Assembly (NCBI RefSeq): GCF_009866655.1
Contig: NZ_CP047420.1
Coordinates: 1,798,001-1,862,000, forward strand
Length of the DNA: 64,000 bases
Direction of reading: 5' to 3'
Origin: Rathayibacter sp. VKM Ac-2804
GTDB lineage: Bacteria; Actinomycetota; Actinomycetes; Actinomycetales; Microbacteriaceae
Shown: piece after piece, positions 3,416-15,119 of the stretch
How positions within the stretch are numbered: position 1 is the first letter of the stretch
Layout of the letters: each line of letters starts with the position of its first letter
Position numbers and translations under genes: made by a program
Notes under the pieces: generated by a model
Databases searched by the model: none
The model's input: only the letters and a program-made list of their open reading frames with translations
What the model was told of the DNA's origin: nothing

Positions 3416-5038
3416 GTGAAACCCCTCGATCCCCGACTGCTCCGCTACGCCCGCGCCGCGCGGCTGTTCCTCGTGCTCGGCGGGGCGCTCGCGCTCGCCC
3501 GCACGGCGACCGCCGTCGCGTTCGCGTGGCTGGTGGCGCAGCTGGTGGCGGGGGCGGTCGACGGCCGATCGGCCACCGAGCTCGCGCCCTCGCTCGCGGC
3601 GCTGCTCGGCGTGGTCGTGCTGCGCTCCGTGCTGGCCTGGGCCGTCGAGGTGAACGCGACACGGGGCGGCGCCGGTGCGAAGGCGCAGCTGCGGTCGGCA
3701 GTCCTCGCCGCGCTCGTCGCACTCGGGCCGTCCGGTCGCACGGCTGGATCGGGCGGGGTCGTCGCTCTGCTCGGCGGTGGGCTCGACGCGCTCGACGGCT
3801 ACTTCGCCCGCTACCTGCCGCAGCTGATCGCGACCGCGATCACCACGCCGATCCTCGTGCTCGTCGTCTTCCTCGCCGATCCGCTCAGCGCGCTCTTCCT
3901 CGTCGTGACCCTCCCGCTGATCCCGGTGTTCATGGTCCTGATCGGCTGGGCGACCCAGGCGGTGCAGAAGAGGCAGTGGAGCCGCCTGCAGGCGCTCGCC
4001 TCCGGCTTCGTCGACACAGTCGGCGGGCTGGCCACGCTGAAGATCTTCGGGCGGGCGGAGAGGCAGGGCGCCCGCATCCGCGCGCTGACCGAGGACTACC
4101 GCGTGCACACGATGAAGGTGCTGCGGGTGACCTTCGTCAGCAGCTTCGTCCTCGAGCTGGCCGGATCGCTCTCGGTCGCGCTCGTCGCCGTCTCGATCGG
4201 ACTGCGCCTGGTCGACGGCTCGCTCGGCCTCGCGATCGGGCTGTTCGTGCTGGTGCTGGCGCCGGACGTGTTCCTCCCGGTGCGGCAGGTCGGCGCCGAG
4301 TTCCACGCCGCGGCGGACGGGGTCCAGGTGGCGGACGAGGCGTTCACGATCATCGAATCCGCGGCGGCCGTGCCGACGCGGACCGCAGCGCCCGGCCGCT
4401 CGGGGGCGCTCGAGCTCCACGGCGTCGCGGTCGACGACGGAGCGGGTCGCGTCCTCGCGCCCGTCGACGCGACCCTGCTCGCCGGCTCGATCACCGCGCT
4501 GACCGGACCCAGCGGCTCCGGCAAGTCGACGCTGCTGGCCGCTCTGGCCGGCTTCGCCCCCGCGACCGGCTCGATCGCCCTCGGCGGTGAGACCATCGAC
4601 GCGGCCACCGGTCGCGACTGGCTCGCCTGGTCCGGGCAGCGGCCCGACCTGCTCCCGGGGAGCGTCGGGTCCAACGTCGCGCTCGGCTCGCGCTCGCCCG
4701 ACCCGGAGCGGATCCTGCGGGCACTCGCGATCGCGGGCACCGACCTCGACCCGGATCGGCGCATCGACGCCGACGGCACGGGGCTGTCCGGCGGGCAGGC
4801 GGCGCGGGTCGCCGTCGCGCGCGCCGTGCACCGCGTCCTCGAGCGCGGCTGCGCGGTGCTCGCCCTGGACGAGCCGACCGCCGCTCTCGACGAGGAGTCG
4901 GAGCGCCGGCTACTCGCCGGGCTCCGCGGGCTCGCGGACCAGGGCGTCGTCGTGCTCGTCGCGACCCACCGCCCCGCGACGATCGCGGCCGCCGACGCCG
5001 TGCTCGCGCTCGCTCCGGCCGAGGCGGTGCTCCGGTGA
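3416..5038 (+). CDS. cydD: ABC exporter CydD (cytochrome bd assembly)
   Basis: This is one half of the heterodimeric CydDC exporter, needed to assemble cytochrome bd; in E. coli it exports glutathione/cysteine. The 540-residue protein has an N-terminal six-helix membrane domain (about 1-310) and a C-terminal ATPase. Walker A GPSGSGKST is near residue 363, the signature LSGGQAARVA near 457, and Walker B VLALDEPTAALD follows. The start is GTG at 3416, 12 bp after cydB. It overlaps cydC by 4 bp (GTGA), so the two halves are translationally coupled. Confidence 0.93.
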   Translation: MKPLDPRLLRYARAARLFLVLGGALALARTATAVAFAWLVAQLVAGAVDGRSATELAPSLAALLGVVVLRSVLAWAVEVNATRGGAGAKAQLRSAVLAALVALGPSGRTAGSGGVVALLGGGLDALDGYFARYLPQLIATAITTPILVLVVFLADPLSALFLVVTLPLIPVFMVLIGWATQAVQKRQWSRLQALASGFVDTVGGLATLKIFGRAERQGARIRALTEDYRVHTMKVLRVTFVSSFVLELAGSLSVALVAVSIGLRLVDGSLGLAIGLFVLVLAPDVFLPVRQVGAEFHAAADGVQVADEAFTIIESAAAVPTRTAAPGRSGALELHGVAVDDGAGRVLAPVDATLLAGSITALTGPSGSGKSTLLAALAGFAPATGSIALGGETIDAATGRDWLAWSGQRPDLLPGSVGSNVALGSRSPDPERILRALAIAGTDLDPDRRIDADGTGLSGGQAARVAVARAVHRVLERGCAVLALDEPTAALDEESERRLLAGLRGLADQGVVVLVATHRPATIAAADAVLALAPAEAVLR

Positions 5039-6684
5039 ACCGCGCCGACGTGCTGCGGGCGGCGATGCCGGCTCCGCGGCGCTTCCTGCCCGGACTGTCC
5101 TTCGGTCTGCTCTCCTCGGCGTCCGTCGTGGCTCTGCTCGCCTGCTCGGCGTGGCTGATCGTGCGAGCGGCCGAGCAGCCGCCGATCCTCTTCCTCTCGA
5201 TGGCCGTCGTCGGGGTGCGCGCGTTCGCGCTCTCGCGCGCCTTCTTCCGCTATCTCGAGCGCCTCTCCGGGCACGATGCCGCGTTCCGGGCGCTGGCGGA
5301 GCTGCGCGCCGGCGTCTACGAGCGGCTGGTGCCGGTCGCGCCCGACGGGCTCGGGCGGGTGCGCCGCGGCGATCTCGTCTCGCGGGTGGTCGCCGACGTC
5401 GATGCGCAGCAGGACGTGCCGCTGCGGATCGTGCAGCCGCTGCTCGTCTCGGCGGTCGTGTCCACCGTCGCGGTGGTGGGCGTCTGGCTGCTGCTGCCCG
5501 CGATGGGCGCCGTGCTGCTCGGCCTGCTCGTGCTCGCCTTCGCCGGGGGAGCCCTCGGCGCGGGACAGGTGTCGGCCCGCGCCGATCGCGAGCTCGCGCC
5601 GCTGCGCGGCGAGCTCGCGGAGCGATTGAATCTGCTGGTGACCCGGCTCGACGTGCTGATCGCCTTCGACGCGGCGGACGACGCGATCGCCGATGTCGCG
5701 GAGGCGGAGGCGGCGCTCACCCGAGCGGCCCGGCGGCGCGCGGCCTCGACCGGGCTCGCCGCCGCCGTCCTCGCGCTGTGCTCCGGCGGCGCGGTCTGGG
5801 GCGGTCTCGCCCTCGGGATCCCCGTGGTCGGCGAGCTCGGCGGCCCGGCTCTCGGGGTGCTCGCCCTGGTGCCGCTCGCCGTGTTCGAGGTCGCCGCCGC
5901 GGCCCCGCTGGCCGTGCAGAGCGCGCGCTCGGCGCTCTCGAGCGCGCAGCGGCTCGCGGACCTCGACGCGCAGGCCGCGTCGCCCGCGCTCGCGACCGAT
6001 GCCGACGTCGATCCCTCCGCCGCTGTCCCGCTCGGCCGCGACATCGTCCTCCGCGACCTCTCCGTGGGCTGGCCCGGCGCCGCGACTCCCGCGCTCACCG
6101 GCGTCTCGCTCGATCTGCGCGCCGGCGAGCGGGTCCTCGTCACCGGCGGCAGCGGCTCCGGCAAGACGACCCTCGCGCACGCCCTCGTCCGCTTCCTCGA
6201 CCACACCGGCTCGTACCGGATCGGCGGGGTCGAGGCGCGCACGCTCCCGCAGTCCGAGCTACGGCGCCTGGTCGGCCTCGTCGAGCAGCAGCCCTACCTC
6301 TTCGACGACACGATCCGGCAGAACCTGCTGTTCGCGCGACCCGAGGCCGACGACGCCGTGCTCCTGGGTGTCCTCGAGCGGGTGGGCCTCGCCTCGTGGA
6401 CGGCGGCCCGCGGTGGCCTCGACGCGCGCGTCGGCGAGCGAGGCTCGCTGGTCTCGGGCGGTCAGGCCCAGCGCCTGGCGCTCGCGCGGGCCCTGCTCGC
6501 CGACTTCGACGTGCTGGTGCTCGACGAGCCGACCGCCTCGGTGGACGCCCCCGTCGCCGACGCGCTGCTCGCCGACCTGCTGCGCGCCGCGTCCGGCCGC
6601 ACGGTCGTGCTGATCGCGCACCGCGTCCCCGGGTCCCTCGCCTTCGACCGGCGGATCACGGTCGCGGACGGCACCGCGGGCTGA
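5035..6684 (+). CDS. cydC: ABC exporter CydC (cytochrome bd assembly)
   Basis: This is the partner half-transporter of CydD. The 549-residue protein has an N-terminal membrane domain (SVVALLACSAWLIVRAAEQP, with the AFALSRAFFRYLERLSGHD element typical of CydC) and a C-terminal ATPase. Walker A GGSGSGKTT is near residue 370, the signature VSGGQAQRLALARALL near 473, and Walker B VLVLDEPTASVD follows. It is the last gene of cydABDC; a strong hairpin starts 13 bp after its stop. Confidence 0.93.
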   Translation: MNRADVLRAAMPAPRRFLPGLSFGLLSSASVVALLACSAWLIVRAAEQPPILFLSMAVVGVRAFALSRAFFRYLERLSGHDAAFRALAELRAGVYERLVPVAPDGLGRVRRGDLVSRVVADVDAQQDVPLRIVQPLLVSAVVSTVAVVGVWLLLPAMGAVLLGLLVLAFAGGALGAGQVSARADRELAPLRGELAERLNLLVTRLDVLIAFDAADDAIADVAEAEAALTRAARRRAASTGLAAAVLALCSGGAVWGGLALGIPVVGELGGPALGVLALVPLAVFEVAAAAPLAVQSARSALSSAQRLADLDAQAASPALATDADVDPSAAVPLGRDIVLRDLSVGWPGAATPALTGVSLDLRAGERVLVTGGSGSGKTTLAHALVRFLDHTGSYRIGGVEARTLPQSELRRLVGLVEQQPYLFDDTIRQNLLFARPEADDAVLLGVLERVGLASWTAARGGLDARVGERGSLVSGGQAQRLALARALLADFDVLVLDEPTASVDAPVADALLADLLRAASGRTVVLIAHRVPGSLAFDRRITVADGTAG

Positions 6685-6697
6685 CGCGTGACACAGC

Positions 6698-6731
6698 GGA
6701 TCCCCGGGCCGAGAAGACGGCCCGGGGATCC
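6698..6731. terminator. Bidirectional terminator-like hairpin between cydC and the lectin array
   Basis: A perfect 13-bp stem (GGATCCCCGGGCC / GGCCCGGGGATCC) with an 8-nt loop lies between the convergent stops of cydC (6684) and the first lectin gene (6755). There is no U-run, which is common in high-GC Actinobacteria. Confidence 0.75.
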
Positions 6732-6754
6732 GGTTCAGTGCGCGTGCACGGGGG

Positions 6755-7924
6755 TCAGCGGCTCGACCAGCTCGCCCGTCCGCGCCCGTCGTACTGCACG
6801 AGGTTGCCGTCGTCCTGCATCACCAGGCGGAACGGCGGGACGGCGGGGCCGACGTTGACGAAGTAGCGCGGAAGGACGCTCCAGCTCACTCGGCCCGGGG
6901 CCGCGACCGCCATGTACCCGTCCTCGTCGATCGAGAAGAAGTCGCCCGACGTCGACGTTCCGGTGGACCAGACCGGACCGGAGCGCCCGTAGACGACGAG
7001 GTTGCCGTCGGCCTGCATCACGGCATTGTAGGCGCCGTTCCCCGAGCGGAGCGACTCGCCGGCCTCGAGCCCGGCCGGCGCGAACAGTGTGCTGCTCGGG
7101 AACGCGATCCGGCTGCTCCAGAGCAGGCGGTCGTCGATGCTCACGATCACGAGTCGGCCGGCGTTGTCGAGGTTCATCCGCACCCCGGAGCCGCTGGTGC
7201 CGGTGAACCACTTCACCGCGCCGTCCGCGCCGTAGATCACGGCGTTGCCGTCCTCCTGCAGCACGAAGCGGTTCCCGGCGCCGGACGTGCCCGTGTTCCA
7301 GGTGACTCCCTGCGGTCCGTAGCCGACGAAATTGCCGTCGCTCTGCATCACGGCGGTGAAGCGGCCGTCGCCGGAGGTCAGCCGCTGACCGGCGCGCAGC
7401 GTCTCGGTGGGGTAGAGCGAGTCGGTCGGCGGCGCCGCGATCGTCGTGCCGATGCTGCTCGCCCACGCGGGGGTGCCGTTCGCCCGGCTGACGACGAGGT
7501 TGCCGTCGTTCTGGATCCGGACGCTCGCGCCGTTCTCGTCACCCGTTCCGGTGAACCAGACGGGCCGGCCGTCCGCGGCGTAGATCACGAGATTGCCGTC
7601 GGCCTGCATCACCAGGCGATCCCCGCGACCCTGGGTGCCGGTGCTGAAGGTGGCACGGCCGCTCGCGTCGTAGGTGACGGCGTTGCCGTCGGTCTGCAGG
7701 ACGAACCGGTAGCCGCCGCCGACCGAGACGATGCTCTCGCCGCGCGCGAGCTGCTCCCCGCTGACGAGGGCGTCGGTGAAGACGTTCGCGGCGGTCGCGA
7801 CCACGGTCGAGACGGGCCCCGAGCCGGCCGCGAGGGCCGGGGTCGCTCCGAGCAGCAGGGCGGCTGCGGTCACGAGCACCACCGCCCCGGAGAGGAGTGT
7901 GCGGGCGGGGTGGAGAGGCGTCAT
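6755..7924 (-). CDS. Secreted bulb-type (mannose-binding) lectin repeat protein, paralog 1
   Basis: The 389-residue protein begins with a Sec signal peptide (basic MTPLHPAR, hydrophobic core, cleavage after ATPALA near residue 32) and has no other membrane segment. It then carries three B-lectin domains (about 55-160, 178-272, 288-389). QxDxNxVxY-type sites are at residues 77, 107, 138 (final Y is S), 194, 223, 304 and 370; the sites near 252 (LDNAGRLVIV) and 332 (IDEDGYMAVA) are degenerate. The chosen ATG at 7924 has AAGGAC upstream and opens the signal peptide; the longer open frame to 7990 adds no homology. It ends in WSSR like its paralogs. It should bind mannose-type glycans outside the cell; adhesion or lectin-like bacteriocin activity are both possible. 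Confidence 0.88.
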   Translation of the reverse strand: MTPLHPARTLLSGAVVLVTAAALLLGATPALAAGSGPVSTVVATAANVFTDALVSGEQLARGESIVSVGGGYRFVLQTDGNAVTYDASGRATFSTGTQGRGDRLVMQADGNLVIYAADGRPVWFTGTGDENGASVRIQNDGNLVVSRANGTPAWASSIGTTIAAPPTDSLYPTETLRAGQRLTSGDGRFTAVMQSDGNFVGYGPQGVTWNTGTSGAGNRFVLQEDGNAVIYGADGAVKWFTGTSGSGVRMNLDNAGRLVIVSIDDRLLWSSRIAFPSSTLFAPAGLEAGESLRSGNGAYNAVMQADGNLVVYGRSGPVWSTGTSTSGDFFSIDEDGYMAVAAPGRVSWSVLPRYFVNVGPAVPPFRLVMQDDGNLVQYDGRGRASWSSR

Positions 7925-8032
7925 CGCTGGTCCTTCGAGCGGATAGGTGGGCAGTTCTCCCGCTTGCTCCCATGCCGCTCGCCGCGCCACGCCGCCGGAA
8001 CGCGGTCGTGATCGAGTGGTGACCCGGCCTTC

Positions 8033-8515
8033 TCAGTCCGCTGGCCGAACCCGTCTCTCGGCCTCGGCGAGCGACCCGCCCTCGGAGGCCCACCGGTCGA
8101 GCACACCGTCGACGCGGGCCCGCGCGGATCCGCTGCTGCTCGCGCGCAGAGGGAGGATCACGTCGCGGGCGAGCGATGCCGTCAGCTCCTCGACCCGCGC
8201 ATCACGGACGAAGCCCTCGAGCCGCGTCAGGTCGGAGGCACGCAGCATCGCTGCTCGCGACTGCAGCAGGACGATCGCCGCGAGCCGCGTCTCGAAGACA
8301 GGCGGCTCCCACAGCTCCGAGGACAGCGCCGTGACGTCGTCGTGCTCGAGCCCGCGGAACTTCTTCAGCGCGTCCCGCACGGTGCCGCGGACCGCTCCGA
8401 CCGAGGCCCCGGTGGAGTCGAGCCCCGCGCCGAGCCGCTCGCGCACGTCCTGCGCCCGCCAGACGTCGCCCTCGTACTCCAGCGCCGCGCGGATGAAGTC
8501 GCCGGCGTCGCTCAC
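8033..8515 (-). CDS. Truncated, degenerate AlkD-like (DNA alkylation repair, HEAT-repeat) protein
   Basis: The 160-residue protein reads like the middle of AlkD-family DNA glycosylases. VGAVRGTVRDALKKFRGLEH and LWEPPVFETRLAAIVLLQSR match the family's VPDIRKLAK...ESPIHEERLLALLLL pattern. The segment ARVEELTASLARDVILPL aligns with the catalytic NWDLVDSSA region, but the key Trp and Asp appear as Glu and Ala. The protein stops after about 160 residues, where family members (about 220-240) continue with WLRRAA. After the stop, the same frame reads GVARRAAWE, possibly a relic. Start GTG 8515. It sits alone between two lectin paralogs. Probably a decaying or non-catalytic relative; the AlkD alignment is by eye. 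Confidence 0.6.
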   Translation of the reverse strand: MSDAGDFIRAALEYEGDVWRAQDVRERLGAGLDSTGASVGAVRGTVRDALKKFRGLEHDDVTALSSELWEPPVFETRLAAIVLLQSRAAMLRASDLTRLEGFVRDARVEELTASLARDVILPLRASSSGSARARVDGVLDRWASEGGSLAEAERRVRPAD

Positions 8516-8600
8516 CCCTCCATCATGCGACGAGAGGGGGAGTGGCGGCGAACCGGGCGCCTCGGCGCGCCCCCTACGGGTCGCGCAGTCCGGAGACGCC

Positions 8601-8641
8601 GACGGCCCGGTGCGTGCGGGACATGCACGAACCGGGCCGTC
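8601..8641 (-). terminator. Terminator-like hairpin downstream of lectin paralog 2
   Basis: GACGGCCCGG...CCGGGCCGTC arms with the inner GTGC/GCAC pairing found in the other hairpins of this array. It lies about 60 bp past the stop of the lectin gene at 8699 (minus strand). Confidence 0.6.
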
Positions 8642-8698
8642 GGCGCGGGCCCACCGGAGGGCGGGGACCCGATCAGGGCCGCGTCGAGGCGACCGCGC

Positions 8699-9949
8699 TC
8701 AGCGGCTCGACCACACCGCCTGGTTCCGTCCGTCGTACTCGACGAGGTTGCCGTCGTCCTGCATCACGAGGCGGAACGGGGCGACCGCGCTGGAGCGGGG
8801 GGTCACCGTCCAGGTGCCGATCCCGTCGCCGCGGACGACCGCCATGAAGCCGTCCTCGTAGAGGTTGAACGAGCTGCCGGCGCCCGAGGTGCCCGTCGAC
8901 CAGATCGGGCCGGAGCGGCCGTAGACGACGAAGTTGCCGTCGCTCTGCATCACGGCCCGGTAGACGCCGTTGGCCGAGCGGAGGAGGCTGCCGGCGGCGA
9001 GCCCGTTCTCGGCGTAGAGGCTCGAGCCGGGCAGCTGCGCCTGGCTGGTCCAGAGCACGGCGTCGGCCTGGTCGACGATGATCAGCGATCCGCCGTTGTC
9101 GATGCCGAGGCGCAGATCGCTGCCGCGGGTACCGGAGGACCACTGGACCGAATCGTCCGGGCCGTAGATGACGGCGTTGCCGTCGGTCTGCAGCACGAGC
9201 CGGTTGCCGGCGCCGCGGGTGCCGGTGTTCCAGACGACGCCCTGGGGGCCGTAGCCGACGAAGTTGCCGTCGGTCTGCATCACCGCACGGAAGCGGCCGT
9301 CCGCCGAGGTGAGCTGGCGCCCGCCGCGGAGGGTCTCGCCGGTGAAGAGCGTGTCGGTCGCCGGAGCGGCGATCCTCCCGTTGACGCTGCTCGCCCACGC
9401 GGGGGAGCCGTTCTCGCGGGAGACGACGAGATTGCCGTCCTCCTGGATGATCAGGGAGGCGCCGGGCTCGTCGTTCGTGCCCGTGCTCCAGACGGGGCGG
9501 TCGTCTGCGGAGTAGATCACGACGTTGCCGTCGGTCTGCATCGCGAGGTGGTCGCCGCGGCCGGCGGTGCCGGTCGCGAAGACGACCCGGCCGTCGGGCG
9601 CGTAGGTGACGGCGTTGCCGTCGGTCTGCATCACGAACTCGTAGGCGGGGCCCGGGTCGTTCGAGTAGATGCTCTCCCCGCCGGCGAGCTCCTCGCCGCC
9701 GATCAGCGCGTTGTAGTAGATGCCGGCGGCGCGGGCCTGCGCATCGGCGTTCGGCTGGAGTGCGGGGGTCGACTCGGCGGCGGAGGCGGAGGAGAGCGTC
9801 TGCTGCACCGCCTCCTCGGCGAAAGCAGGCGTCGCGGTGAGGAGGAGTGCCCCGGTCGCGACGAGCGCGACGAGGCCGGAGCCGACGAATCGGGCGGGCC
9901 CGGTGGAGCGGGAGAACCCGTTCGAGCGGGAGGAAGAGGGAGGCGTCAT
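8699..9949 (-). CDS. Secreted bulb-type lectin repeat protein, paralog 2
   Basis: The 416-residue protein has a long basic N-region (MTPPSSSRSNGFSRSTGPAR), a hydrophobic core and a cleavage site after ATPAFA. Three B-lectin domains follow. The nine site positions read MQTDGNAVTY, MQTDGNVVIY, IQEDGNLVVS, MQTDGNFVGY, LQTDGNAVIY, IDNGGSLIIV (degenerate), MQSDGNFVVY, LYEDGFMAVV (degenerate) and MQDDGNLVEY, the same pattern as paralog 1. The start at 9949 is set by the signal peptide and the AGAAAG ribosome-binding site; the 64 extra codons upstream are leader. It shares the leader box and 3' hairpin with its neighbours. Ligand and role are inferred only from the family. Confidence 0.88.
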   Translation of the reverse strand: MTPPSSSRSNGFSRSTGPARFVGSGLVALVATGALLLTATPAFAEEAVQQTLSSASAAESTPALQPNADAQARAAGIYYNALIGGEELAGGESIYSNDPGPAYEFVMQTDGNAVTYAPDGRVVFATGTAGRGDHLAMQTDGNVVIYSADDRPVWSTGTNDEPGASLIIQEDGNLVVSRENGSPAWASSVNGRIAAPATDTLFTGETLRGGRQLTSADGRFRAVMQTDGNFVGYGPQGVVWNTGTRGAGNRLVLQTDGNAVIYGPDDSVQWSSGTRGSDLRLGIDNGGSLIIVDQADAVLWTSQAQLPGSSLYAENGLAAGSLLRSANGVYRAVMQSDGNFVVYGRSGPIWSTGTSGAGSSFNLYEDGFMAVVRGDGIGTWTVTPRSSAVAPFRLVMQDDGNLVEYDGRNQAVWSSR

Positions 9950-9970
9950 CGCAGATCTTTCTCGAGAGGT

Positions 9971-9986
9971 CGGCATCGCCGAGCGG
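9971..9986 (-). promoter_or_regulatory. Conserved 5' leader box of lectin paralog 2
   Basis: On the minus strand it reads CCGCTCGGCGATGCCG, 21 bp upstream of the ATG and followed by the CTCGAGAAAG ribosome-binding region. The same box precedes paralogs 3, 4 and 5. Confidence 0.5.
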
Positions 9987-10113
9987 ATCCTCGAATGCTC
10001 GCACGCGCCGGCGGCATCGGGCGTGCGCTCGGGACGCCGTGTCCCGGTGGCGCGTGCGTCGGCGCCGCCGAAGCGCTCGCTCGCCCGTGGCCCGGACCTC
10101 GGGCCTTCATGAC

Positions 10114-10153
10114 GGCGGCCCGGTCCGTGCGGGAAGCGCACGACCGGGCCGTC
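10114..10153 (-). terminator. Terminator-like hairpin downstream of lectin paralog 3
   Basis: GGCCCGGTC...GACCGGGCC arms around CGTGCGGGAAGCGCAC, about 45 bp past the stop at 10198 (minus strand). Same design as the other hairpins of the array. Confidence 0.65.
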
Positions 10154-10197
10154 AATGCAGAGCGGACCGCCTCGGCGGAGCCCGCTGGTGGATGCCG

Positions 10198-11055
10198 TCA
10201 GCGGCTGGACCAGACGACGTGGCCCTGTCCGTCGTACTCGACGAGCTTCCCGTCGTTCTGCAGCACGAAGCGGAACGGCCCGGTCGCGCCGGAGGCGGAG
10301 CGGTTCGCCCAGACCACGGTGTCACTCCAGTCGTAGATCGACGCGACGCCGTTCTCGGCGACGTACAGCCCGTTGGCGATGCCGTGAGTCCCGGTCTGCC
10401 AGATCAGACCCGTCGGGCCGTGGACGACGAGGTTCCCGTCGGACTGCATCACCGCCAGGTACAGACCGTCGTCCGAGCGCAGCACGTCACCGGTCGAGAG
10501 GTGGTTCGGGGCGTACAGGACCGACCCCGGCAGCTGGGACTGGCTGTCCCAGCCCAGGTCGCCCTCGTCGTCGACGATCGTGAGCACTCCGCTGTCGTCG
10601 AGTACGACGGCGAGGTTCTCGACGTTGGAGTCGGTCGACCACGCGGCGGTGCCGGACGACCACTCGACGGAGCCGTCGGTGCCGAGGACGACGGCGTCGC
10701 CGTCGTCCTGCAGGACGAGGCGGTTGCCGGTGCCGCGGGTGCCGGTGCTCCAGATCTTTCCGGCGGGTCCGTCGCCGACGAGATCGCCGTCGGTCTGCAT
10801 GACCGCGTGGAAGAGCCCGTTCTCCGACGTGAGCTGGTCACCCGGTGCGAGGGTGCCGCCGGTGGGGAGGGTGTCGTGCGGCGGTGCGGCCGTCGTCCCG
10901 GCACCGTCCGACCGGGCGGGAGTGCCGTTCTGCGAAGCCGCTGCTCCGACGGCGCTCTGGGCGAGGGCGGGTGTCGTGCCGAGGAGCAGGGCTCCCGCCG
11001 CGACGAGCGCGACGAGGACGGAAGCGAGGGAGCGTGGTTGTGATGGGGACGTCAT
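10198..11055 (-). CDS. Short, degenerate secreted bulb-type lectin protein, paralog 3
   Basis: This paralog has 285 residues against 389-416 for the others. The signal peptide is intact (MTSPSQPRSLASVLVALVAA..., cleavage after TTPALA), but the first lectin domain is absent; the mature protein starts at what is domain 2 in its siblings. Its six sites are mostly changed: MQTDGDLVGD, LQDDGDAVVL, VLDDSGVLTIV, MQSDGNLVVH, VAENGVASIY, LQNDGKLVEY. None keeps the full QxDxNxVxY set. The fold residues and the terminal WSSR are kept and the frame is open, so it is a real but diverged gene rather than an obvious pseudogene. Start ATG 11055 with GAAGGA upstream. Confidence 0.82.
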   Translation of the reverse strand: MTSPSQPRSLASVLVALVAAGALLLGTTPALAQSAVGAAASQNGTPARSDGAGTTAAPPHDTLPTGGTLAPGDQLTSENGLFHAVMQTDGDLVGDGPAGKIWSTGTRGTGNRLVLQDDGDAVVLGTDGSVEWSSGTAAWSTDSNVENLAVVLDDSGVLTIVDDEGDLGWDSQSQLPGSVLYAPNHLSTGDVLRSDDGLYLAVMQSDGNLVVHGPTGLIWQTGTHGIANGLYVAENGVASIYDWSDTVVWANRSASGATGPFRFVLQNDGKLVEYDGQGHVVWSSR

Positions 11056-11097
11056 GGCAGTTCCTTCTCGTGGAGATGGGCACCGCCGTCGACGAGG

Positions 11098-11113
11098 CGG
11101 CATCGCCGAACGG
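11098..11113 (-). promoter_or_regulatory. Conserved 5' leader box of lectin paralog 3
   Basis: On the minus strand it reads CCGTTCGGCGATGCCG, preceded by GGAAGA as in paralog 4. It lies about 42 bp upstream of the ATG at 11055. Confidence 0.5.
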
Positions 11114-11244
11114 TCTTCCTCCCACGAAAGCACTACCGCAGGATTTCCACATCTTGTGGCGCGGGGCGTGGGGTCACCGTCGCGCCGTCGCGCTTCTCCG
11201 CTCTGCAGGAGAGCAGGCGCAGGGTCGGACCCTTCGCGAGAACG

Positions 11245-11289
11245 CCGATGGCCCGGCTCGTGCAGGGCGTGCACGTGCCGGGCCATCGG
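11245..11289 (-). terminator. Terminator-like hairpin downstream of lectin paralog 4
   Basis: 19-bp arms (CCGATGGCCCGGCTCGTGC and its complement) with one mismatch and a 7-nt loop, ending 43 bp past the stop at 11333 (minus strand). Confidence 0.7.
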
Positions 11290-11332
11290 ACGGGATGTCA
11301 GCGCATCCGCGAGCGCATCGACCTCAGGGCGG

Positions 11333-12541
11333 TCAGCGGGTGGACCAGACGGCCCGGCCCTGCCCGTCGTACTCGACGAGGTTCCCGTCGGTCTGCATGA
11401 CGAGACGGAACGGCCCGACCGCAGCGGAGGCGGGGCCGGACGACCAGGTGACCTTGCCGACCTCGGTCTCGATCGTCGCGACGCCGTCGGCTGCGAGGAC
11501 GAGAGCGCTCTCGATGCCCGAGGTCCTCGTCTGCCAGATCGCGCCGGACGGGCCGTAGACGACGAAGTTCCCGTCGGCCTGCATCACCGCTCGGTAGGCG
11601 CTGTCGTCCGAGCGCAGCAGCCCCCCGATCTCGAGGACGCCGGGTGCGTACGCGACCGACCCCGGCAGAGCGGTCTGACTGTCCCATTCGAGAGCACCGT
11701 CGGGATCGACGATCTTCAGCACTCCGCTGTCGTCGAGGGCGACGGTGAGGTCCTCGCCACCGGTGCCGGACGCCCACCTGACCGAGTCGTCGGCGCCGTA
11801 GACGACGGCGTTCCCGTCGTCCTGGATGACGAAGCGGTTGCCGATGCCGCGGGTGCCGGTGCTCCAGATCGCTCCGGCGGGGCCGTAGCCGACGAGGTTG
11901 CCGTCGCGCTGCATGACCGCGCGGAACAGCCCGTTCTCGGAGGTGAGCTGGTGACCGTGGAGGAGCGTGCTGCCGGTGTCGAGCGAGTGGTGCGGCGGTT
12001 CGGCGATCCTCCCGGCGGCGGCGGACCAGGCGGGCGTGCCGTTCTGGCGGTAGAGGACGAGGTCGCCGTCCTCTCCGAGCACGAGGTGGGCGCCGGGCTC
12101 ACCGTCCGTGCCGGAGCTCCAGAGGGGACGCCGATCCGCATCGACGACGACGATGTTCCCGTCTTCCTGCACGATCAAGGAGTTGCGATCTCCCGAGGTG
12201 CCGGTGCTGAAGAGGACCCTCCCGTCGTCCGAGCGGAGGACAGCGTCGCCGTCCGTCTGCATGGTGAGGACGAACGTGTCCTCCGGATCGGAGAACACAC
12301 TGAAGTTCGGGCCGAGGGTCTCGCCGCTGAGGACGGCGTTGTAGTACTCGTACTGCCCTCTGCTGCCGCCGCTGGGCCACGGCTTGAGGGCGGGTGTGGT
12401 CGGGCTCCACTCGGTCGACGAGGACCACCCGGGTGCCCCGCTCGCCGCGAGGGCGGGCGTCCCGCCGAGGAGCAGGCCTCCGGTTGCGACGAGCGCGACG
12501 ATCCCGGCGGCGAGGGGGCGTGGAGATGTTCTGAGTGACAT
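11333..12541 (-). CDS. Secreted bulb-type lectin repeat protein, paralog 4
   Basis: The 402-residue protein has signal peptide MSLRTSPRPLAAGIVALVAT, cleaved after GTPALA, and three B-lectin domains. Sites in order: MQTDGDAVLR, VQEDGNIVVV, LGEDGDLVLY, MQRDGNLVGY, IQDDGNAVVY, VALDDSGVLKIV (degenerate), MQADGNFVVY, LAADGVATIE (degenerate), MQTDGNLVEY. Domain 1 is therefore weakened while domain 2 and the last site stay intact. Start ATG 12541 follows AGAAAGAACTGCC, nearly identical to the other copies. It ends in WSTR. Extracellular, glycan-binding by family inference. Confidence 0.87.
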   Translation of the reverse strand: MSLRTSPRPLAAGIVALVATGGLLLGGTPALAASGAPGWSSSTEWSPTTPALKPWPSGGSRGQYEYYNAVLSGETLGPNFSVFSDPEDTFVLTMQTDGDAVLRSDDGRVLFSTGTSGDRNSLIVQEDGNIVVVDADRRPLWSSGTDGEPGAHLVLGEDGDLVLYRQNGTPAWSAAAGRIAEPPHHSLDTGSTLLHGHQLTSENGLFRAVMQRDGNLVGYGPAGAIWSTGTRGIGNRFVIQDDGNAVVYGADDSVRWASGTGGEDLTVALDDSGVLKIVDPDGALEWDSQTALPGSVAYAPGVLEIGGLLRSDDSAYRAVMQADGNFVVYGPSGAIWQTRTSGIESALVLAADGVATIETEVGKVTWSSGPASAAVGPFRLVMQTDGNLVEYDGQGRAVWSTR

Positions 12542-12582
12542 GGCAGTTCTTTCTCGAGAGGACGGCACCGCCGCGATCGAGG

Positions 12583-12598
12583 CGGCGTCGCCGAGCGG
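12583..12598 (-). promoter_or_regulatory. Conserved 5' leader box of lectin paralog 4
   Basis: On the minus strand it reads CCGCTCGGCGACGCCG, again preceded by GGAAGA. It lies 41 bp upstream of the ATG at 12541. Confidence 0.5.
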
Positions 12599-12693
12599 TC
12601 TTCCACCCACACAAGCACTCACCCCCGGGTCCGATCGCGTTCCGGCGCGCAGTGCGGGGTCGTTGTCACGTCACCCGCGAGAACGCCGTCGAG

Positions 12694-12728
12694 CGCCCGG
12701 TTCGAGCGAGGCGAGCGCGAACCGGGCG
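12694..12728. terminator. Extra hairpin between lectin paralogs 4 and 5
   Basis: A perfect 11-bp stem (CGCCCGGTTCG / CGAACCGGGCG) with a 13-nt loop. It is a second hairpin in the same spacer, upstream of paralog 4, and has no gene of its own. Confidence 0.5.
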
Positions 12729-12789
12729 GTCGCCGTGGAGCTCGGCCCGGTCGTGACCGAGGCGCGGACGTCTTCGCGCGCACGGCGAC

Positions 12790-12824
12790 GGCCCGGCTCG
12801 TGCGGACTGCGCACGAGCCGGGCC
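12790..12824 (-). terminator. Terminator-like hairpin downstream of lectin paralog 5
   Basis: A perfect 15-bp stem (GGCCCGGCTCGTGCG and its complement) with a 5-nt loop, 49 bp past the stop at 12874 (minus strand). Confidence 0.7.
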
Positions 12825-12873
12825 ATCGGAGGGAGACGTCACCGGATCGGCGCGCCCGACGACCTCGGAACGG

Positions 12874-14064
12874 TCAGCGGAGGGACCAGACCGGCCGATC
12901 CTCGCTGTCGTACTCGACGAGGTTGCCGTCGCTCTGCAGGACGAAGCGGTAGGGCGCGGTGCCGCCGGCGGCGGGCGTCGCCGTCCAGACGACGCTGCCG
13001 TCGCCCGCGACGATCCGGGCGGTGCCGTCCTCGGAGAACTCGAACGAGCTGTCGACACCCGACGTGCCCGTCCACCAGTCGGCGCCCGTCGGGCCGTAGA
13101 CGACGAAGTTCCCGTCGGCCTGCATCACCGCGCGGTACCGGCCGTCGTCGGAGCGGAGGTGGTCGTCCACCGCGAGGGTGTTCGGCGCGTACATGCTCGA
13201 CCCGGGCAGCCCGGACTGGCTGGTCCACAGCACGTCGTAGTCCTCGTCGCTGATGCTGAGCACGCCGTTGTCGTCGAGGAGGATGCTGCTCGCCGCGCCC
13301 TCGGTGTCGGCGGCCCACTTGATGCCGCCGTCCGCACCGACGATCACGGCGTAGCCGTCCTCCGACACGAGGAGCTCGTTCGCCTCGCCGCGCGTGCCGG
13401 TGTTCCAGACGACCCCGTCGGGCCCGTAGCCGACGAGGTTGCCGTCGCGCTGCATCACCGCGCGGAACAGTCCGTTCTCCGAGGTGAGCTGGTGGCCCCG
13501 CAGCAGCGGCTCGTCGACGTTCAGGGTGTCGAACGGCGGCTCGGGGAGCGTGCGGCCGACGCTGCTCGCCCACGCGGGCGTGTCGTCCTCGCGGTAGAGG
13601 ACGAGGTTGGAGTCCCTCTGGACGACCAGGTGAGACCCCGGCTCGTTGTCGGTTCCGGTGCTCCACAGGGGGCGGTCGGCGGACGAGTAGATCACCACGT
13701 TGCCGTCCTCCTGCAGGACGAGGCGGTTGCCGCGGCCCGAGGTTCCGGTGCTGAAGAGCGGGTGACCGACCTCGTCGTAGACCACGGCGTTGCCGTCGTC
13801 CTGCATCCGGAAGGTGGATCCTCCTCCGGACCCGTCGGAGGCGATGTACTGGCCGGCGAGGAGCTGCTCGCCGGCGACCAGCTCGTCGGAGACCTCGCCG
13901 CGCACTGTCGCGGCGGCGGCGACGGAGGTCGTCGCGGAGGTGCTCGAGGAGACGGTGCTGTGAGCGCTCTGCGCGAGCGCCGGCGTGGCGGTGCAGAGCA
14001 GGGCGCCGGCGGCGGCGAGGGCGACGAGCCCTGAGGCGAGTGGTCGTGAGGTGTGGGATGTCAT
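12874..14064 (-). CDS. Secreted bulb-type lectin repeat protein, paralog 5
   Basis: The 396-residue protein has signal peptide MTSHTSRPLASGLVALAAAG, cleaved after ATPALA; it holds a Cys (ALLCT) but no proper lipobox. Three B-lectin domains follow. Sites: MQDDGNAVVY, LQEDGNVVIY, VQRDSNLVLY, MQRDGNLVGY, VSEDGYAVIV (degenerate), LDDNGVLSIS (degenerate), MQADGNFVVY, FSEDGTARIV (degenerate), LQSDGNLVEY. Domain 1 is the best preserved of the array. It ends in WSLR. Start ATG 14064 follows the shared AGAAAGAACTGCG leader. It is the most upstream gene of the five in transcription direction, but each gene has its own leader and hairpin, so separate transcription is likely. Confidence 0.88.
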   Translation of the reverse strand: MTSHTSRPLASGLVALAAAGALLCTATPALAQSAHSTVSSSTSATTSVAAAATVRGEVSDELVAGEQLLAGQYIASDGSGGGSTFRMQDDGNAVVYDEVGHPLFSTGTSGRGNRLVLQEDGNVVIYSSADRPLWSTGTDNEPGSHLVVQRDSNLVLYREDDTPAWASSVGRTLPEPPFDTLNVDEPLLRGHQLTSENGLFRAVMQRDGNLVGYGPDGVVWNTGTRGEANELLVSEDGYAVIVGADGGIKWAADTEGAASSILLDDNGVLSISDEDYDVLWTSQSGLPGSSMYAPNTLAVDDHLRSDDGRYRAVMQADGNFVVYGPTGADWWTGTSGVDSSFEFSEDGTARIVAGDGSVVWTATPAAGGTAPYRFVLQSDGNLVEYDSEDRPVWSLR

Positions 14065-14121: not shown

Positions 14122-14221
14122 ACTGCCTCGATCCTGGCGCGCAGGAGTGCCGTGCTCCGCGGTCCGGCGCGTGATGCGGGGTCCCTGTCACGCGGTCCCT
14201 CCTCCCCGCCGAGAAACGGCC

Positions 14222-14248
14222 CGGCTCGTGCGAGGAGTGCACGAGCCG
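14222..14248 (-). terminator. Hairpin near pabC, possible relic of a lost lectin copy
   Basis: A perfect 10-bp stem (CGGCTCGTGC / GCACGAGCCG) with a 7-nt loop. The stem and the following TCGGAGGGAGA match the hairpin region after paralog 5. It could serve pabC (stop at 14358), but its likeness to the array hairpins is closer than chance would suggest. Confidence 0.5.
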
Positions 14249-14357: not shown

Positions 14358-15119
14358 TCAGGGGAGGGGACGGCGGAGGGCGTCCAGGCGGCGGCGCCAG
14401 GCGTCCAGCCGGCCCGGCACCGCGGCGAGCGCCGGCCCGTCGACCCAGCTCGTCGCCAGACGCAGCCCGTGCAGCGCGTTCGCCGTCCACACCTCGCGGC
14501 CGTCGAGGTCGGCCGGCTCGGCCGGGGCCTCGATGACGTCGACGCTGAGCGCTCCCGCGAGCACGGAGACCGTTCGGGCGGTCACGCTCCGGACGCGGCG
14601 GCTGCTCGCGGGCGGAACGACCAGCGCGTCGCCGAGCCACCAGAGCACGGCGCTCGACGCGCCGTCGACGACCGTGCCGTCGGGACCGAGGATCACGGCC
14701 TCGTCCGCACCGGCCGCGAGAGCCCGCGAGCGCAGGAGCGCGAGACGCGCGATGTCCGGTCCCTTGCGCGCCGGAACGCGCCGAGGATCGACGGGGCTCG
14801 TCCAGAGCACGACGGTGCGGCCCTTCGGTGGCGCGGGGCGAAGACGCAGGCGCAGTCCCTCCGCGGTCAGCTCGACCCGGGGGAAGGAGTCGCCGGTGCG
14901 GGGGAGCGCCGCGACGGCGGCGTCGAAGAACGCCCCGGTGTCCTCCGGTCCAGCGGCGTCGGCGACCGCGGCGAGGAACCGCTCCCGGTGCAGCTCGAGA
15001 CCGCGCACGCGGCCCGCCGACACCAGCCAGGAGTCGGCCGCGAGGAGGGCGCCGGCCGGAGCGTCGGCCGCGGGACCGAGCTCGCGCCCGTCCCACACCC
15101 GCACCAGCTCGCCGTCCAC
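14358..15119 (-). CDS. pabC: Aminodeoxychorismate lyase-like class IV aminotransferase
   Basis: PLP-dependent fold-type IV enzyme, probably the 4-amino-4-deoxychorismate lyase that makes p-aminobenzoate for folate. The 253-residue protein shows the class IV pattern: RKGPDIARLALLRSRA with the likely PLP lysine, then ADEAVILGPDGTVVDGASSA, the family's dEallld..G.v.E.s.s element. The start is GTG 15119. It is divergent from a pabB-type gene with only 19 bp between starts, which supports PabC over branched-chain or D-amino-acid aminotransferase. Family certain, substrate inferred. Confidence 0.8.
   Translation of the reverse strand: MDGELVRVWDGRELGPAADAPAGALLAADSWLVSAGRVRGLELHRERFLAAVADAAGPEDTGAFFDAAVAALPRTGDSFPRVELTAEGLRLRLRPAPPKGRTVVLWTSPVDPRRVPARKGPDIARLALLRSRALAAGADEAVILGPDGTVVDGASSAVLWWLGDALVVPPASSRRVRSVTARTVSVLAGALSVDVIEAPAEPADLDGREVWTANALHGLRLATSWVDGPALAAVPGRLDAWRRRLDALRRPLP

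Follow-up and report, generated by a model that had tools for sequence, protein, structure and literature searches.

The 64,000-nucleotide stretch of the Rathayibacter sp. VKM Ac-2804 genome analysed here (positions 1,798,001 to 1,862,000 of contig NZ_CP047420.1; hereafter the window) contains five genes, L1 to L5, for a diversified and probably secreted set of B-lectin proteins beside cydC. Sequence and predicted fold relate the proteins both to LlpA/pyocin L1 and to the mannose lectins of monocots. Their sugar-contact residues are held while the rest has diverged, which upholds a preliminary description, made from the letters of this DNA alone, of a diversified lectin set in an actinobacterium. 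Their number at this site varies among strains of the genus. We favour, with a probability of about 0.5, the reading that they are a diversifying set of multivalent lectins that recognise mannose-type residues in the glycopolymers of bacterial walls, acting in wall coating, adhesion or kin recognition.

Domains, sugar sites and constraint

The five genes are minus-strand open reading frames, as previously described, and all pass the gathering score of the Pfam family B_lectin (PF01453; 36.9–55.4 bits against 32.4). With their neighbours, in the numbering of the 64,000-nucleotide window, they are:

5035-6684, plus strand: CydC (TIGR02868, 509 bits against a cut-off of 329)
6755-7924, minus strand: L1, 389-residue three-domain B-lectin, probably secreted, six exact QxDxNxVxY sites; between the AlkD-like gene and cydC
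8033-8515, minus strand: AlkD-like gene (DNA_alkylation, PF08713, 31.7 bits against a gathering score of 21), not a lectin, separating L1 from L2
8699-9949, minus strand: L2, 416-residue three-domain B-lectin, probably secreted, six exact sites; AlphaFold2 model
10198-11055, minus strand: L3, 285-residue two-domain B-lectin, probably secreted, lacking domain 1, no exact site
11333-12541, minus strand: L4, 402-residue three-domain B-lectin, probably secreted, four exact sites, none of them in domain 1
12874-14064, minus strand: L5, 396-residue three-domain B-lectin, probably secreted, six exact sites, site 2b lost
14358-15119, minus strand: pabC-like class-IV aminotransferase (PF01063, 75.8 bits against 28.5)

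The set had been called a tandem array between cydC and pabC. The genes are clustered, but the AlkD-like gene interrupts the row, and although the CydC flank is confirmed, pabC is a plausible name for the other flank (14358-15119), which reached no NCBIfam cut-off in the profile search. A codon filter picked no gene in the array beyond the lectins and the AlkD-like gene. Each lectin has a basic and hydrophobic N-terminus closing with an AxA-type motif in a by-eye reading, in line with the Sec signal peptides attributed to them, and all five are probably secreted by this route; each also ends in the WS[S/T/L]R sequence already noticed. L2 is 90% identical to a protein of Rathayibacter sp. PhB151 and, among the matches listed, most of the named best-scoring relatives are from Rathayibacter.

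Three beta-prism domains, earlier ascribed to the whole set, are found in four of the five proteins, in L2 from its AlphaFold2 model (about residues 79-194, 195-305 and 306-416) and in L1, L4 and L5 from alignment, whereas L3 has two domains only, domain 1 being absent. L2 and L3 are predicted to have the beta-prism II fold, their models matching monocot mannose lectins, and mannose lectins of plants and fungi are among the nearest solved folds; the Foldseek list beyond lectins, largely beta-propellers and other proteins with an rmsd near 20 Å, was disregarded. The model alignments comprised 35 (A2) and 29 (A3) of the 120 listed relatives, together with the window proteins. Both models stop two residues past the last beta-prism strand, and by eye the lectins show no anchor to wall or membrane.

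Exact QxDxNxVxY sites number 6, 6, 0, 4 and 6 in L1 to L5, respectively, with the sites of domain 1 retained in L1, L2 and L5. When sites with at least four of the five motif letters are counted, each protein has 2–7, against 0.003–0.014 expected from 2000 shuffles. The sites claimed for the set are thus far above chance, but no exact one is found in L3, in domain 1 of L4, or in any of the three further L3-clade proteins examined. Mannose-type sugar binding is established for the B-lectin family (PMC3585409 and PMC6240691), and the predicted fold and sites support such binding by the array lectins.

Divergence was measured against the genus genome G011, which has four lectins at the same site. 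The ratio of nonsynonymous to synonymous divergence (dN/dS, by Nei-Gojobori, rough at this G+C content) is 0.24 for L1, 0.32 for L2, 0.56 for L4 and 0.62 for L5, and 0.08, 0.16 and 0.22 for the neighbouring CydC, AlkD and pabC-like genes. The contact columns of the exact sites are nonetheless invariant in 30 of 30 cases in the L5 clade, 20 of 20 in the L4-type clade (a set that includes G011_b) and 29 of 30 in each of the L1 and L2 clades, the short protein P0112 having been left out. The remaining domain columns are invariant in 110 of 278, 134 of 272, 193 of 275 and 252 of 302 cases in the same order, so the contrast is large in the L4-type and L5 clades and modest in L2. Glutamine, aspartate, asparagine, valine and tyrosine residues outside the sites are invariant in 17 of 67 (L5), 26 of 63 (L4-type), 33 of 59 (L1) and 57 of 72 (L2). 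Part of the constraint is structural, because almost every tryptophan outside the sites is likewise invariant (8/9 to 8/8). Since the contact columns stay fixed amid this divergence, we take them as sequence evidence that sugar binding has been retained while its surroundings changed.

A lectin repeat of L3 (residues 63-107) weakly matches the C-terminal part of the CcrM model (E 3e-3, far under its cut-off) and an orphan-methyltransferase model (2e-6). The phage family phrog_19296, with no assigned function, is matched by all five lectins (E 2e-13 to 3e-44), and related proteins therefore occur in phage genomes.

Transcription units and the history of the site

Both a shared leader and individual 3' hairpins had been reported for the genes. 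The leader, repeat family D14, is common to L2–L5 and reaches up to and over the ATG; that of L1 differs and is the same as the leader of its relative in G011. One hairpin does follow each gene, those of L2–L5 belonging to a single family (D12) and that of L1 being different. A further repeat family, D15, lies farther upstream of L3, L4 and L5. The elements, all on the minus strand, are:

14216-14248: extra D12 hairpin in the gap between the pabC-like gene and L5
14059-14096: L5 leader (D14)
12788-12820: hairpin 3' of L5 (D12)
12536-12573: L4 leader (D14)
11248-11280: hairpin 3' of L4 (D12)
11050-11087: L3 leader (D14)
10115-10147: hairpin 3' of L3 (D12)
9944-9981: L2 leader (D14)
8602-8634: hairpin 3' of L2 (D12)
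6697-6732: hairpin 3' of L1 (outside D12)

The minimum free energies of the hairpins 3' of the five lectins correspond to z scores of -3.7 to -7.4, and no folded hairpin region is surpassed in stability by more than one of its 200 shuffles. Within this genome of 4.09 Mb, a single contig, a strict D12 pattern occurs at three places, all within the array (control 0), while passing over the deviating copies at 10115 and 14216. The D14 leader at 0-1 mismatch occurs at four places, again all within the array; at three mismatches there are five further genome matches, against one for the reversed control. With the leader at 0-1 mismatch and the strict hairpin confined to the array, general-purpose repeats were rejected as an explanation, and hairpin, leader and gene appear to form a duplicated unit.

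A sigma-70 promoter scan found none against 0.1 expected, and a T-run terminator scan found one against 1.2 expected, nothing above chance. The hairpins may act as terminators. Five separate transcription units are more likely because a separate hairpin follows every gene and L2–L5 have their leaders, and the same features disfavour a single operon.

The preliminary description had proposed copy number as a point of comparison, and it proves variable among the 15 Rathayibacter genomes sampled (G000 to G014, G000 being the five-lectin genome). The pabC-like gene and cydC are present in 14 of them; the fragmented assembly G014 has no match to either or to AlkD and could not be scored. Between these flanks lie five lectins in G000, four in G011 and one each in G010, G007, G004 and G002, and none in the other eight (G001, G003, G005, G006, G008, G009, G012 and G013). 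The AlkD-like gene is found in 13 of the 15 genomes, within the interval in 11 and elsewhere in G009 and G012; it was not found in G003. Since lectin counts vary between conserved flanks, the lectins have been added to a conserved site or repeatedly lost from it. At E 1e-10 the array profile matches in 22 of 299 family genomes, from 8 of 85 genera, and the near-full-length matches are all from Rathayibacter among the matches listed.

In a tree of 42 proteins, for which 9 of 33 listed relatives were dropped as duplicates of locus proteins, L1, L2, L3 and L5 each cluster with proteins of other Rathayibacter with support of 100/99 or 100/100. The paralogs are therefore, as judged from these clades, older than the species compared. 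L4 joins P0043 and, with less certainty, P0020. As G011_b falls outside the group of L3 and L4, L3 seems to derive from an L4-type gene; the deeper forks, among them the one that unites the groups of L4 and L5, are poorly supported. The sole copy in G010 is a relative of L3, 94% identical and with a synonymous divergence (dS) of 0.05, whereas the neighbouring genes of the two genomes differ by 0.26 (CydC), 0.27 (pabC-like) and 0.42 (AlkD). This difference, which rests on one pair, suggests that the L3-type gene was recently exchanged between lineages.

Some copies are less regular. No ATG was found for G007_a, for which the reading was started upstream, and the start of G002_a may also be too early. 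The cydC match in G007 (L150:3381-5022) falls into two pieces that overlap, suggesting an interrupted frame or an error of assembly. In G002 the gap from AlkD to cydC measures about 18 kb (L152, L153; C8, about 73.7 to 91.5 kb), and the codon filter picks almost no genes there; AlkD-like fragments at one edge make it a possible insertion. Away from the cydC site, G003 has a lectin match bearing an in-frame stop (G003:C1:2505548-2506087).

Candidate ligands and roles

In the reading that we favour, the five genes, probably transcribed separately, would give Sec-secreted products with two or three beta-prism-II domains, four of which would bind mannose-configured sugars (mannose and perhaps D-rhamnose) multivalently through their QxDxNxVxY pockets. 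Their most likely ligands would be bacterial surface glycopolymers, the producer's own or those of its relatives, and by coating or cross-linking walls they may cause aggregation, adhesion or kin recognition; the adhesive role already suggested for them is plausible. Duplication of the hairpin-leader-gene unit, long divergence, and then gain, loss and exchange beside cydC would have led to the strain-specific mix.

A bacterial rather than a host target is suggested by the relatives. A wall-acting domain is found in 21 of the 120 listed, and by analogy these fusions make bacterial wall polysaccharide no less plausible a target than host mannose. Actinobacterial surface glycopolymers are the receptors of other lectins (PMC13274773), and the C-domain of pseudomonad LlpA binds D-rhamnose (PMC6240691). 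Every one of the 15 genus genomes has a gmd-like gene beside a second gmd-like one, the pair being partial in G014. In none of the 15 does a gmd match attain the family cut-off, and the neighbour scores 246 bits as GMD against 101 bits as GDP-6-deoxy-hexulose reductase. The two stretches examined around the pair contain manA, rmlD and an rmlC-like gene, a set compatible with a 6-deoxy-mannose polymer, D-rhamnose itself not being established. The pair adjoins a Wzm/Wzt-like exporter pair in a polysaccharide region at 1.456-1.495 Mb (L188:107-3122, L187). D-rhamnose and mannose polymers have been reported from Rathayibacter walls, but no such report was found in the open-access literature searched, and they are given no weight. 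The passages of PMC11294650 consulted deal with sugar use only.

Several observations weigh against this reading. Lectins are absent from the site in 8 of the 15 genus genomes and 3 have no lectin match at all, so the function is dispensable within the genus. The gmd-like pair occurs in lectin-bearing and lectin-free genomes alike and does not discriminate between them, and the sub-threshold gmd and its more GMD-like than reductase-like neighbour leave D-rhamnose unestablished. The wall-enzyme domains belong to the relatives and not to the array proteins, which also show no wall anchor by eye. L3, besides having no exact site, differs from its G010 relative by 18 nonsynonymous and 10 synonymous changes, indistinguishable from neutral evolution (p 0.28), and may be a decaying gene; its reading frame is open in four L3-clade proteins, and neutrality fits the single pair compared at the DNA level. 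L4 and L5 share only 60-61% identity with their partners in G011, at a dS of 0.56 that exceeds the 0.29-0.43 of the neighbours, and these partners may not be strict orthologs.

The paralogs could instead be lectin-like bacteriocins of a monoderm, binding the wall glycopolymer of relatives and killing or stopping them at the surface, with the producer protected by a different type of receptor and no immunity gene; we judge this unlikely. The five lectins match NF033557, the putidacin L1 family, with E values of 7e-20 to 9e-56, but all miss its curated cut-off of 275 bits (71.5-189.2 bits). Like LlpA and the L-type pyocins, they have tandem beta-prism II B-lectin domains with QxDxNxVxY sites and no toxin domain, and no immunity gene is seen near the array, where the codon filter left only the AlkD-like gene besides the lectins. 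LlpA itself needs neither an immunity gene nor a toxin domain (PMC6240691). The probable signal peptide of the array lectins is a difference from LlpA, although a Sec signal is also predicted for one LlpA of Xanthomonas (PMC6240691). Patchy copy number and the one likely exchange between strains would also fit antagonism. Against this reading, four of the five lectins have three domains and L3 alone has the two that define LlpA; all five end at WSxR without the C-terminal beta-hairpin extension, which is also absent from Xanthomonas and Arthrobacter homologues; L1, L2 and L5 retain the sites of the first domain, largely lost in LlpA N-domains (PMC3585409); and BamA, the receptor known for LlpA, resides in the outer membrane, while the array is in a Gram-positive host. 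The comparison with LlpA put forward earlier therefore succeeds for the fold and mostly fails for domain number, C-terminal extension and profile cut-off. Albusin B of Ruminococcus albus is a B-lectin bacteriocin from a Gram-positive (PMC6240691), but it has a peptidase M15 domain, for which none of the five lectins gave a Pfam match.

It is also doubtful that the lectins target mannose glycans of eukaryotes as adhesins or effectors, binding plant, fungal or nematode surfaces and aiding colonisation. Rathayibacter is known from plants and plant-gall nematodes, and mannose lectins from plants and fungi rank among the nearest solved folds. The monocot lectins (snowdrop, Gastrodia, SCAfet) share fold and motif with the array proteins and offer in SCAfet a two-domain precedent; they are, however, plant proteins, and no chain with three B-lectin domains was noticed among the matches listed. 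With no anchor seen, a free lectin would have to bind the bacterium as well in order to tether it to a host, and the bacterial wall-enzyme domains of relatives and the several genus members without the genes likewise speak against a host ligand.

Two further proposals are improbable. One is a strain-specific recognition set of graded valency, in which a shared monosaccharide pocket varies in number and surroundings, the siteless L3 is a partner that binds protein or regulates, and related monoderms are killed or excluded by the set through wall-glycopolymer recognition, LlpA-like without an enzyme domain. The other holds that the lectins coat the producer's own wall polymer and so block phage adsorption or foreign lectin toxins, which would fit an arms race in view of the divergence around fixed contacts, the variable copy number at one locus and the targeting of variable actinobacterial wall glycopolymers by umbrella toxin lectins (PMC13274773), but a defence library gave four of the five lectins just a weak orphan-methyltransferase match (best E 2e-6), and no linked defence gene was found.

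Precedents and further B-lectin genes

Among actinobacteria, the M. smegmatis lectin 4oit, the tandem MMBL protein of Arthrobacter FB24 and mono-domain Streptomyces proteins share domain and motif with the array; many of the mono-domain ones have a predicted Sec signal, and the solved M. smegmatis lectin matches the array proteins. Those compared have one or two domains, against three and a five-gene array here. Part of UmbA4 of the Streptomyces umbrella toxins (9oee) was a top structural match, but its glycan is recognised by the UmbA4 beta-propeller (PMC13274773). An umbrella toxin component was rejected: none of the five lectins has a Pfam match to the trypsin-like N-terminal domain of UmbA at E up to 1, and for the UmbC ALF repeats, searched with a single repeat profile, the best PF03752 score in the genome was 13.6 bits against 25.4, with similarly weak matches in 5 of 14 control genomes.

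The literature already has the domain, its predicted secretion among actinobacteria and tandem B-lectins from them, and PMC6465234 lists 'Rathayibacter sp.' among the abbreviations of a figure of lectin-like proteins, presumably for one B-lectin protein. No description of a five-gene array was found in the open-access literature on Rathayibacter or Microbacteriaceae lectins or on actinobacterial B-lectins, which is weak evidence of absence. The protein type is thus known, and the array is a new arrangement of it. The wall glycopolymers of actinobacteria vary, and only a few of their lectins have been characterised. With fixed contacts, variable surroundings, relatives at graded divergence and a siteless member, the array offers a natural test bed for the ligands of bacterial B-lectins and for whether surface lectins alone drive kin recognition or antagonism in Gram-positives.

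Outside the array the genome has at least four more genes for B-lectins. One is at 349 kb; three form a second group at 2.776-2.784 Mb (L011:7026-14982), and two of these three encode a C-terminal Excalibur calcium-binding domain.

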